Below, one piece after another: positions 4,215-60,370 of a stretch of 64,000 nucleotides of DNA. Position numbers and translations under genes: made by a program. Under the pieces are notes generated by a model, which ran no database searches, was not told the origin of the DNA, and saw only the letters and a list, made by a program, of their open reading frames with translations. Location: assembly GCA_027080505.1 (NCBI GenBank), contig JALWRX010000037.1:1-64000 (forward strand), read 5' to 3'. The stretch is from Ghiorsea sp. GTDB taxonomy: Bacteria; Pseudomonadota; Zetaproteobacteria; Mariprofundales; Mariprofundaceae. How positions within the stretch are numbered: the first letter of the stretch is position 1; every line of letters starts with the position of its first letter.

Positions 4215-4897
4215 AACAGCAAAGCCTAGAACAAATCATCGGTTATACCTTTCATGATTCATCCATACTCAAAAAGGCTTTAACCCATGCATCAAAAGCA
4301 TCTGAACACCTAGAACGTCAAGAGTTTTTAGGTGACTCAGTACTTGGACTTATTATTTCAGAATATTTATATCATCAATACCCGCAGCTTAATGAAGGTG
4401 CATTGTCCAAAATGAAAGCCAACTTGGTTTGTAAAGATGCCTTATTGGATGTAGCCAAGGCTTGGAAGCTGGCTTCCTTTTTAAATGTAGGTGATGGTGA
4501 GCGTGATAAGACAGGGCATTTGAAGTCACCTTCCATTGCTGCCAATGCTGTTGAATCTATCATTGGTGCAGTCTTTTTAGATGCTGGTTGGCAACAAGCC
4601 AAGCAGATGGTTTTAAATGCTTGGTCAAACTTAATCAACCAAGTTGAACCTTCAAATTTACGGGATGCAAAAAGTAAGTTACAAGAATTAACACAGGCAA
4701 ATAAGCTAGGGTTACCAAGTTATAAGATTACAGACTTGGGTATTCAAAGCTCCCCGCGTTTTAAAGCCGAATGTATGCTACAAGGAAAATGCTTGGGCAT
4801 AGGTTTAGGTAAGCGGAAAAAACAAGCTGAATTAGAAGCTGCTAGCCAAGCTTTAAGCAGCCCTGTTATGCATAGTCTTTTAGGCGATAGGAGCTAA
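4211..4897 (+). CDS. rnc: Ribonuclease III
   Basis: 228-residue double-strand-specific endoribonuclease for rRNA processing and mRNA turnover. The signature EFLGDSVLGLIISEYLY near residues 37-53 carries the metal-binding Glu and Asp residues. The second acidic pair lies near AANAVESIIGAVFLD, and a dsRNA-binding domain occupies about 150-220, ending in KKQAELEAASQAL. The only possible start is TTG at 4211, overlapping the upstream stop as TTGA, so translation is probably coupled; the next Met lies inside the catalytic domain. An era gene, often next, is absent. The 3' end overlaps the convergent rodZ by 4 bp, with no room for a terminator. Confidence 0.95.
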   Translation: MKQQSLEQIIGYTFHDSSILKKALTHASKASEHLERQEFLGDSVLGLIISEYLYHQYPQLNEGALSKMKANLVCKDALLDVAKAWKLASFLNVGDGERDKTGHLKSPSIAANAVESIIGAVFLDAGWQQAKQMVLNAWSNLINQVEPSNLRDAKSKLQELTQANKLGLPSYKITDLGIQSSPRFKAECMLQGKCLGIGLGKRKKQAELEAASQALSSPVMHSLLGDRS

Positions 4898-56099: not shown

Positions 56100-57224
56100 T
56101 TAGTTTTTTAGCTTAGCCTCTTTGAGTTGAGCCTCGGTTAAGCGTTGTTTTTTATGCCGTGTTTTGGGTTCTGCAAGGCGGCTAGCATTTTTGCCTTTGC
56201 GCCTTTCTTTGGCGTATGTTGTTTTATTGTGCGCCGATTCTTTCTGAATTTTCAAGTAGTTATCGTAATGGTCAATATCAAGTTCATCGTTCTCAATTGC
56301 AGCAATGATAGCGCAGCCTGGCTCATTGCTATGCCCGCAGTTGGAAAACCTACACGACAACGCAAGCTCCAAAATATCTTCAAAACTTTCTTCAATACCT
56401 TCGCTGACTTCGGCAATCGCCAGTTCGCGCATACCTGGCATATCCACCACCATGCCGCCTTGGTCTAACAGCATCAAATGCCTACGCACCGTGGTATGCC
56501 GCCCTTCGCCATTGGCGCTAACTTCTTGGGTTTCAAACTTGTCTACGCCCAATAATTGATTCATCAGCGAGCTTTTGCCCACCCCCGATGAGCCCACCAT
56601 ACAATAAGTTTTCTTCGCTTGAATCAAGGCTCGCACTTCTTCAATGCCTTCGCCTGTTTTATTGCTCAACTGAATAATCTTTAAACTTATGCCTGCATCT
56701 TCAATATCAAGCAACAAGTCTTCAATATCTTCAGGGTGCATCAAATCGGTTTTGGTCAGAATCAATACAGGCTCAATTTTTCCCTCATTCACCAACACAA
56801 GGAATCGCTCAAGTTTACGCACATGAAAATCATAGTCACATGCCATCACAATCAATGCCGTATCAATATTGGCGGCTAAAAGCTGAAACTCATCATCATA
56901 ACCCGGTGCTTTGCGTTTAAGCAGGGTTTTACGCGGCAATACAGTGTGAATACTGGCAAATTGATGGGATGCTGCTGTTTTAGCATCATGATATTTAAGA
57001 CATACCCAGTCACCCACACAAGGGAATGCCGTTGCCCTTTCAGCACCATAAAAGAATTTACCCAACAATTCTGCGGACAATTCTTGTGTGCCGTCATGTA
57101 CCACAAGCCTATCCCTATCCACAGCCACCACACGCGCCACACTTTGCCCTTCACTGCAAAATGCTTTGGCATGTTCTTCAAACCAATTGTCGAATCCAAT
57201 ATCAGATAAACTCACGCCGCACAC
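56100..57224 (-). CDS. rsgA: Ribosome small-subunit GTPase RsgA
   Basis: 374 residues, circularly permuted GTPase for 30S maturation. N-terminal OB fold (VARVVAVDRDRLVVHDGTQEL), then G4 LTKTDLM, G1 GSSGVGKSSLMNQLLG, G3 DMPGMRELA, and the C-terminal zinc finger CRFSNCGHSNEPGCAI. Starts at GTG 57224 or GTG 57215 are both possible and neither has a strong ribosome site. It is followed by the unusual 850-bp non-coding region. Confidence 0.94.
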   Translation of the reverse strand: MCGVSLSDIGFDNWFEEHAKAFCSEGQSVARVVAVDRDRLVVHDGTQELSAELLGKFFYGAERATAFPCVGDWVCLKYHDAKTAASHQFASIHTVLPRKTLLKRKAPGYDDEFQLLAANIDTALIVMACDYDFHVRKLERFLVLVNEGKIEPVLILTKTDLMHPEDIEDLLLDIEDAGISLKIIQLSNKTGEGIEEVRALIQAKKTYCMVGSSGVGKSSLMNQLLGVDKFETQEVSANGEGRHTTVRRHLMLLDQGGMVVDMPGMRELAIAEVSEGIEESFEDILELALSCRFSNCGHSNEPGCAIIAAIENDELDIDHYDNYLKIQKESAHNKTTYAKERRKGKNASRLAEPKTRHKKQRLTEAQLKEAKLKN

Positions 57225-57636: not shown

Positions 57637-57680
57637 TAAATGCTGATACTACACAAAGCAACCCAAAACATGTGTCAAAA

Positions 57681-57695
57681 GACAAACTATTTGTC
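57681..57695. promoter_or_regulatory. Palindrome, candidate enhancer-binding site
   Basis: GACAAA-CTA-TTTGTC is a perfect inverted repeat, and TGTCAAAA occurs twice about 19 bp apart (57673 and 57692). It lies about 125 bp upstream of the sigma-54 -24 element, a usual distance for an activator site. Confidence 0.5.
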
Positions 57696-57805
57696 AAAAA
57701 CATGAACATGGAATCTGAAATGTTTGAAACAAAAAGCCTTAATAACAAATACACAAAAGAATATAAACCATTGTATATAAAGGAAGTTTCATAAGGAATT
57801 TAACT

Positions 57806-57821
57806 TTGGCACGCTATCTGC
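57806..57821 (+). promoter_or_regulatory. Sigma-54 promoter
   Basis: TTGGCACGCTATCTGC matches the RpoN consensus TTGGCACG-N4-TTGC except one base; GG (57808-57809) and GC (57820-57821) are exactly 12 bp apart as required. Transcription should begin near 57833. No protein gene lies downstream on this strand. Confidence 0.82.
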
Positions 57822-57832
57822 TATAGTTATAT

Positions 57833-58067
57833 TAACAGCGTGTCGTAGTACTGACGTTGTAACTTATAAAGCTGAACCGATACGTTTTATATGGAAGCTA
57901 ATCGATGGTGGTGTGCGTTCCCTTTGTTGGGAAACCTAAAACCAAAGAGCGGCATCCCCCTAACATTTTAGGGTTTAAGTTTTTTGTAGGTTACAACGTC
58001 AGTGCTTCGGCGCAAAGCAAAGGCCTGCTCTCCCTTCCTCCCCCCCCCTCCCCGAGCAGGCTTTTTT
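57833..58067 (+). ncRNA. Candidate sigma-54-dependent structured small RNA, about 235 nt
   Basis: A 14-bp perfect pair (57850-57863 with 57990-58003) extends inward by 7 more pairs with two G-U to make a 21-bp stem (57850-57870 with 57983-58003). Inside are a CCCTAA-CATT-TTAGGG hairpin (57958-57973) and a CTTTG...CAAAG pairing near 57922-57947. After the stem come a small cUUCGg hairpin (58004-58011) and the terminator. The 23-base terminator loop is nearly all C and T. The 3' end lies 6 bp before the convergent comEC stop. A 26-codon ORF inside (57891) has no ribosome site. The family is not known to me. Confidence 0.75.
58023..58067 (+). terminator. Rho-independent terminator with C-rich loop
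   Basis: GCCTGCTC (58023-58030) and GAGCAGGC (58054-58061) form an 8-bp GC-rich stem, followed by TTTTTT. The 23-base loop contains a run of about nine C plus TCCC blocks, complementary in character to GGAGG-type ribosome sites. It also lies downstream of convergent comEC. Confidence 0.9.
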
Positions 58068-58072
58068 CTTTT

Positions 58073-60370
58073 TTATTCTATACTTACTTCACCATTCTTA
58101 AAAACAACCTTCACCGCACCATGTGCAGTATTGAATACTTGGCTACCCACATCTTGATAACGTTTGACCACTTCATCTTTAGGAAAGCCGTAATGATTCT
58201 TATACCCTGTTTGCGCAATCACCACTTTAGGACGCACTTTGCTCACAAAATCAGGTGTGCTCGATGTTTTACTACCATGATGCGGCATCAACATCACATC
58301 CACAGCTTTAATCTCAGATAATATCGCTTGCTCTACACCTGCTTCTGCATCACCCATCAATAATAGTGTTTGCCCATCCTTAAAACTCAGCCATAAAACC
58401 AAGGACGCATTGTTATTATTTTTCGGTGCATAACCTTGTGGTGGCCACAATACTTGCACTTGAACACCTTGCGCCAAATTCAATACATCGCCTTTTTTCA
58501 ACCATTGAACAGGGTACTTATCCAATACATCTTTAAAATAAACATGATTTTTTGGCACATCCGCCAACCATAACGACCCCACACCATTCAAATTTACCAA
58601 TAATCGGCTTAAACCACCTGCATGATCGGATTGGGCATGTGAAATGACCATAGCATCCAGATGCAGCAGACCAAGGTGTCGCATATTTTGAGCTGCAATG
58701 GTGCCACCATTGTATTTACTGCCCCGTTTACCCGGTGCATCCATCAACAACTGAAAATCAGGCAAAGATACTAAAGCCGATGCACCCTGCCCTACATCCC
58801 AAACATGCAACTGCGGTTGCACTACTTTTGTTTCGGATAAACCCAGCCAAACATAACTTGATAAACTGACCAACAATAACGAAACTGCTGCTATACGCCT
58901 TGTTTGCAGCCATAAACCACCCACCACAAGCAATAATAAACCCAACATTACAAACAACCACGGCATATCCGCCCGCAGCCAAACATCAGCTAAGGGTAAA
59001 TCTTGTATCCACATTAAATACTGGTTGCCTTGTGTTATGCCTACACCTGACCATGTAAACACAGTGTTTGCCCATGCAGATAAACCCAATAACGCCAGTA
59101 ATTCACCAAGCAATGCCAAAGGCAGTACCCAAAGCGCGTATAATGGCACAAGCAATACATTGGCAAGCAAACTCCATGTGGGTAAACGTTCAAATACATA
59201 ACCAATCAAGGGAAGTGTGGCTAAAGATGCAATCACAGACACCCAAAACATGCCCTTAAACCACAACCAAGCTTGGGCAAGCATAGATTTGCTTGCAGTT
59301 TGTTGCCCTGCCCAAACAATCAGTGCTGATGTCGCCACAAAAGAAAGCCATAATGAAATCGATAATACAGATGCAGGGTCAAACAAAGTAATCAGCAATA
59401 AAGCAACAAACATGGTATTGAGCGGCACTTGGCTTGCCCGCATCGACCATGCAATTACACCCGCCAACAACATTAAAAAGGCACGTTGTGCGGGAATAGG
59501 AAACCCTGCAAGCAATGCATAGGCAAAAGCCAATAATACACCCGCACTTAATGCCACAGTGCGCACAGGAAAACGTACAATCCAAGCTTCTCGCCGCGTA
59601 ATGATCCACCAAGCGAAAAGAAAACCCCAACCTGCCACCAAACCCATATGTAAACCTGAAATTGCCAATAAATGCGTTGCACCACTGGCAGCAAAGTCAT
59701 CATCAATCGCCAAAGGAATCTGGCTTCTATCGGCAAGCAATAGAGCCAATAATATGCCTTGCTGGTTTTTGTCTAAGCCCGATAAAGCTTGGCGTATATG
59801 CTGCCTTGCCTGCTCAAGCCACGAGACTTGATGATTCAATACTTCAACCCTACCAGATACACTACCCAAAGCCGCCACACCCTGCGCAAACATATATTGC
59901 TCATAATCAAAATAAGCAGGATTCTTTTTATTGTGTGGCTTGTGTAGTTTGACCGTGGCAGCAATTTGCATGTCGGGCAATAATTGAAGTTGCTGATGAT
60001 AAACATATACATCAATCAGAGCATCTAACTTATTCCCATCATCACGCTGCACATTTGCAAGCCGTAAACGGGTGTATTGTGGTGTATGCCTAACATCATG
60101 GATTTGAGCTTGGATATGTATCTTTTGCCCCAACCAACTGGCATCAATACTGGTTTGTTGCTGCTGCCAAACAAGACTTAAACCACCAAATCCTAAACCT
60201 GCAAATAAAAACCAAAACCAAAGCTTTCGCCACCACGGCAACAACAATAAAAAGATAAGAAAATAAGGAAAAACAACAAGTTCCAAACGTGCAAACACTA
60301 AACCCAACACCCAAACAAGGCTGGGCAATAACAAAGGGATATTTTTAGGCAGGGTAAACAATATCCCCAC
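58073..60370 (-). CDS. comEC: DNA uptake channel protein ComEC/Rec2
   Basis: 765 residues. N-terminal membrane segments with an OB-like soluble domain (IHIQAQIHDVRHTPQYTRL), the competence domain (LLAISGLHMGLVAGWGFLF), then about 10 helices, and a C-terminal metallo-beta-lactamase-like nuclease domain (AMVISHAQSDHAGGL; MLMPHHGSKTSS). The HxHxDH motif reads SHAQSDH, one His replaced, so the nuclease centre may be modified. It would pass single-stranded DNA across the inner membrane. Start GTG 60370 overlaps ribD by 26 bp; TTG 60361 is an alternative. Confidence 0.93.
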   Translation of the reverse strand: MGILFTLPKNIPLLLPSLVWVLGLVFARLELVVFPYFLIFLLLLPWWRKLWFWFLFAGLGFGGLSLVWQQQQTSIDASWLGQKIHIQAQIHDVRHTPQYTRLRLANVQRDDGNKLDALIDVYVYHQQLQLLPDMQIAATVKLHKPHNKKNPAYFDYEQYMFAQGVAALGSVSGRVEVLNHQVSWLEQARQHIRQALSGLDKNQQGILLALLLADRSQIPLAIDDDFAASGATHLLAISGLHMGLVAGWGFLFAWWIITRREAWIVRFPVRTVALSAGVLLAFAYALLAGFPIPAQRAFLMLLAGVIAWSMRASQVPLNTMFVALLLITLFDPASVLSISLWLSFVATSALIVWAGQQTASKSMLAQAWLWFKGMFWVSVIASLATLPLIGYVFERLPTWSLLANVLLVPLYALWVLPLALLGELLALLGLSAWANTVFTWSGVGITQGNQYLMWIQDLPLADVWLRADMPWLFVMLGLLLLVVGGLWLQTRRIAAVSLLLVSLSSYVWLGLSETKVVQPQLHVWDVGQGASALVSLPDFQLLMDAPGKRGSKYNGGTIAAQNMRHLGLLHLDAMVISHAQSDHAGGLSRLLVNLNGVGSLWLADVPKNHVYFKDVLDKYPVQWLKKGDVLNLAQGVQVQVLWPPQGYAPKNNNNASLVLWLSFKDGQTLLLMGDAEAGVEQAILSEIKAVDVMLMPHHGSKTSSTPDFVSKVRPKVVIAQTGYKNHYGFPKDEVVKRYQDVGSQVFNTAHGAVKVVFKNGEVSIE

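Follow-up and report, generated by a model that had tools for sequence, protein, structure and literature searches.

The region between rsgA and comEC in the window, a stretch of 64,000 nucleotides from Ghiorsea sp., harbors a second, paralogous 6S RNA (SsrS) gene (class B), which comparison of related sequences indicates is very probably transcribed by sigma-54 RNA polymerase. Positions 57806-58067 comprise, in order and on the plus strand, a sigma-54-type -24/-12 element (57807-57822), a strongly folding RNA of ~234 nt and a terminator with a run of six T residues. The transcript predicted from promoter, fold and terminator extends from an A at 57834 to 58067 and includes a 6S domain at 57845-58009, composed of a closing helix, central bubble and apical stem. 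In the terminator (58023-58067), GCCTGCTC at 58023-58030 is paired with GAGCAGGC at 58054-58061 across a 23-nt C/U-rich loop (58031-58053), and the T6 tract runs to 58067, bearing out the strong terminator described in an earlier note on this DNA. The absence of a protein gene downstream of the promoter, also observed in that note, was confirmed, as the next genes, the divergent rsgA (56100-57224; PF03193; e-value: 5.6e-48) and the convergent comEC (58073-60370; PF03772; e-value: 5.1e-56), are both located on the minus strand. The latter is a stable neighbor of the class-B locus across other Ghiorsea genomes.

The earlier note had proposed a new class of structured RNA, but the covariance search against Rfam which it advised matched a known family. 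Positions 57845-58009 match 6S/SsrS (RF00013; Bitscore: 54.4; e-value: 4.8e-8) above the gathering cut-off of 46.4 bits, and as such the RNA does not represent a new class. The window copy furthermore scores 154.5 bits against model R1. A sigma-54 small RNA of a new class, without any relationship to 6S, might account for the long perfect stem and the sigma-54 promoter, but it is scarcely credible given that the RF00013 match covers the full model (positions 1-187) and that the class-B copies of several genomes likewise exceed the Rfam 6S cut-off. The genome from which the window derives (G000; 134 contigs; 2.03 Mb) also contains a better-scoring, canonical 6S gene on contig C131, located between zapA and fau (gene names by sequence reading). 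The window copy lacks this zapA/fau linkage, lying between rsgA and comEC, and the presence of the canonical copy elsewhere in the genome thus makes it a second 6S gene. A search with rsgA identified Ghiorsea and Mariprofundus, both Zetaproteobacteria, as relatives. It resembles 6S RNA of the E. coli type in its sequence and structure across the full model, with the same closing helix, central bubble and apical stem and a core of ~165 nt, but differs in its location away from the zapA-fau locus, where a separate copy resides, and in having its own sigma-54 promoter and its own terminator with a C/U-rich loop.

The RNA at 57833-58067 has a predicted folding energy of -91.3 kcal/mol (z = -7.5), and none of 200 shuffled sequences reached an equally low value. 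The long stem claimed in the earlier note corresponds to a genuine closing helix that covaries, and the search of relatives for compensating changes in this stem, likewise suggested there, revealed double changes in 29 of 44 pairs among 28 relatives, with 112 compensated cells observed versus 30 in shuffles. The class-B alignment contains five helices, separated by unpaired stretches, in which 96.6% of the cells are paired, and pairing falls from 97% to 42-44% when the partner is shifted by a single base. The double changes and the loss of pairing on a one-base slide together argue that the structure of the class-B RNA is under selection.

When 41 Zetaproteobacteria genomes were initially screened for 6S copies, a canonical copy was found in nearly all, while many contain additional copies. 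The latter form one clade (class B), separated from the canonical copies (class A) by a single split with a support of 100/100. A covariance model built from 28 class-B sequences was run on 78 genomes of the Zetaproteobacteria and identified class B in most lineages, with copy numbers ranging from zero to six per genome, the maximum occurring in a Mariprofundus-like genus. Several Ghiorsea genomes, including G006 (98% complete), lack class B. No comparable score was obtained among the 321 other Pseudomonadota sampled, in which the best e-value was 6e-8, versus 1e-20 or better for nearly all class-B copies. Tandem class-B copies, 85 nt apart, are present in G009 (L057:4001-4166 and 4252-4417), where only the first carries a sigma-54 box. 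In Mariprofundus sp. EBB-1 (contig NZ_RCFQ01000021.1), a class-B copy is located next to rsgA. Four Ghiorsea genomes contain a third, degenerate 6S-like sequence (L250:878-1013 on G000:C50, as well as L251, L252 and L253), which has a sigma-70-like promoter, lies 45-60 nt ahead of a miaB-like gene and lacks its own terminator. It scores ~69-72 bits against model R1, has no match in Rfam and possibly represents a leader that descends from class-B 6S. In another proteobacterium (L260-L262; G045), three additional 6S copies are nearly identical to one another, and their nearly identical upstream flanks suggest a repeated element carrying 6S RNA.

The -24/-12 element of the window copy (TGGCACG-ctat-CTGCT; TGGCACGCTATCTGCT) places GG at 57808-57809 and GC at 57820-57821 with ten bases between them, and deviates from the consensus TGGCACGN4TTGCW by one mismatch (CTGC for TTGC). 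Within 64 kb, a lone motif with one mismatch allowed is not significant, so that a single genome is insufficient to settle the sigma-54 assignment, which comparison settles instead. The box occurs with the sigma-54 spacing and at a constant distance from the RNA in 44 of 86 class-B copies and is represented in 34 of 49 genomes, compared to a mean of 0.23 and at most 2 copies in shuffles; in these counts the box is partly shared by descent among close relatives, clustering of upstream sequences having been applied in the enhancer test only. It is found in 0/37 canonical 6S copies, and is also lacking from the extra 6S copies of the other proteobacteria G045 and G048. Among the class-B copies anchored on TTGGCA, TGC follows exactly 12 nt on in 34 of 35, compared to a background of 2%. 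T-G-G-C-A and T-G-C-T are nearly invariant across the 44 sigma-54-type copies, with most box letters at 1.7-2 bits, while the spacer is variable and most of its positions fall below 0.4 bits. A purine is conserved 13 nt past the GC, being an A in 39/44 sigma-54-type copies, and places the predicted transcription start at 57834 instead of at 57833 as in the earlier note. The rpoN gene is present in the same genome and in 40/41 genomes searched, and the box pattern matches 17 sites across the former versus one for a reversed control, including credible promoters of type IV pilin and flagellar genes. The comparative counts and the presence of rpoN thus lend support to the sigma-54 promoter claimed in the earlier note.

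The sigma-54 box is missing from the other 42 of the 86 class-B copies, most of which carry sigma-70-like promoters at the same place, for example TTGACC-17-TATACT; both kinds sometimes coexist in one genome. The tree requires 13 switches between the two promoter kinds, at least four of which are forced by the starred branches. Class-B 6S might as such be driven by sigma-70 like canonical 6S, with the sigma-54 box being incidental or a minor second promoter, and in the window a TTGGCA-16-TATATT pair scoring 10/12 is in keeping with this reading. However, a -10 hexamer suitably spaced from TTGGCA is present in only 2/44 sigma-54-type copies, against a shuffled mean of 7.5, and is missing from G005 and G008, which are closely related to the window genome, while a TGCT conserved precisely at +12 does not belong to the features of a sigma-70 promoter. 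Transcription of class B by sigma-70 with an incidental sigma-54 box is consequently unlikely. The sigma-70 reading of TTGGCA was rejected for the family, the -10 hexamer being rarer than chance, and is a minor possibility for the window copy, where the scoring pair makes dual sigma-54/sigma-70 control possible. The variable copy number and the degenerate relative preceding miaB in four Ghiorsea genomes could alternatively indicate that class-B copies are nonfunctional duplicates undergoing decay. Such decay is very improbable in view of the excess of compensatory changes in the stem and the joint conservation of promoter, RNA and terminator.

Upstream of the sigma-54 promoter, TGTCAAAAGACA (57673-57684) and TGTCAAAA (57692-57699) form a candidate enhancer site on the plus strand, about 115-135 nt from the -24 element, which is a variant of an inverted repeat found in other Ghiorsea genomes. 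In nine of these the repeat takes the form TTGAC-N6/7-GTCAA, mostly at about -113; it is almost unique to the class-B 6S gene and accompanies it in 9/12 Ghiorsea genomes. GTCAA/TTGAC is present upstream of 17 of 35 sigma-54-type sequence clusters versus 1/37 others (p = 4e-6), a comparison that includes the Ghiorsea sequences in which the word was first noticed; the non-Ghiorsea genomes alone give 8/26 versus 1/33 (p = 0.004). The element is regarded as a likely candidate for an enhancer site. A shared enhancer regulon was sought through the inverted repeat, but its few matches elsewhere are scattered singletons and as such do not reveal a regulator. The link to an enhancer-binding protein drawn in the earlier note is therefore plausible in that the GTCAA/TTGAC word is enriched at sigma-54-type copies only, although the repeat does not lead to a particular protein. 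Seven strong AAA+ enhancer-binding proteins are encoded in the same genome and represent candidate regulators, including a PilR-like protein whose gene adjoins those for a kinase and the pilin peptidase (pilD). A type IV pilin gene with a sigma-54 box, TTGGCATAAGCATTGCT, and upstream TGACA/TGTC repeats (G000:C123:47243-47259; L129) is likely a PilR target. The pilin promoters carry TGACA/TGTC words, but the spacing and the form of the repeat differ from those at class-B 6S, and PilR is for this reason not claimed as the class-B regulator.

6S RNA is a well-known brake on RNA polymerase, which it occupies by imitating an open promoter, and the housekeeping polymerase it inhibits is usually also the one by which it is transcribed. 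The best supported chain of events for class B would lead from a signal through an enhancer protein and sigma-54 polymerase to class-B 6S and the occupation of sigma-70 polymerase, its first steps resting on conserved sequence and its final step on how 6S RNA is known to act. Once bound at about 57673-57699, an enhancer-binding protein would cause the sigma-54 promoter at 57807-57822 to open, and sigma-54 polymerase would then produce an RNA of ~234 nt, starting at about 57834 and ending at the terminator at 58067. By imitating an open promoter, this RNA would occupy sigma-70 RNA polymerase and lower housekeeping transcription for as long as the enhancer signal is on. To our knowledge the sigma-54 holoenzyme is not a target of 6S RNA, so that production of the class-B copy could continue during a block of sigma-70 polymerase. 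If this is correct, an extra 6S RNA driven by sigma-54 would allow a specific signal to trigger a global brake, and the supply of 6S would stay open while its target polymerase is blocked. Since sigma-54- and sigma-70-type paralogs coexist within individual genomes and promoter changes recur on the tree, the class-B family furthermore constitutes a natural experiment on the rewiring of a global RNA regulator.

Sigma-54-controlled small RNAs are represented by CrcZ and GlmY/GlmZ, which act through Hfq/Crc or RapZ. The class-B gene resembles these in its enhancer-dependent sigma-54 promoter, small RNA product and own terminator, but differs in that its product would, by analogy with its family, be a polymerase-binding 6S RNA. 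A second 6S copy, 6S2, is known in Legionella pneumophila (PMC3048289), and 6S-1 and 6S-2 of Bacillus are likewise second 6S RNAs (e.g. PMC7726162). Class B is similar to these as an extra paralog expected to follow a different schedule from the first, but forms a separate clade of the Zetaproteobacteria with up to six copies. No sigma-54 promoter is reported for Legionella 6S2 or Bacillus 6S-1/6S-2 in the literature searched, while an RpoD promoter is listed for the 6S gene of S. meliloti (PMC7143759) and a sigma-70 promoter for that of C. jejuni (PMC3847290). Full-text searches of papers other than the principal 6S surveys returned no report that connects 6S RNA with a sigma-54 promoter or with Zetaproteobacteria. 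Within the literature searched, 6S RNA and second 6S copies are thus already known, whereas sigma-54 control of 6S is apparently new.

Most class-B copies end, downstream of the 6S domain, in GGCCTGCC-(C/U-rich loop)-GGCAGGCC with T residues. In 787 kb of Zetaproteobacteria DNA, C/U-rich loops are present in 31 of the 67 terminator matches near class-B 6S, compared to 3/182 elsewhere; the loop is as such nearly specific to class B, and its interpretation as a generic terminator feature of these genomes was rejected. CCTCCC is frequent in the loops, and it is offered as a suggestion only that this sequence could pair with ribosome-binding sites. An extended version, in which class-B RNA is bifunctional, its sigma-54-induced 6S domain blocking sigma-70 polymerase and its Shine-Dalgarno-complementary CCUCCC loop pairing with mRNAs, so that both transcription and translation would be repressed, is speculative and rather improbable. 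A terminator of the class-B kind, AAGGCCTGC with a C/U-rich loop, is also found ~3 kb from the nearest 6S match in G032 (L084:7040), where it possibly belongs to another RNA or represents a relic.
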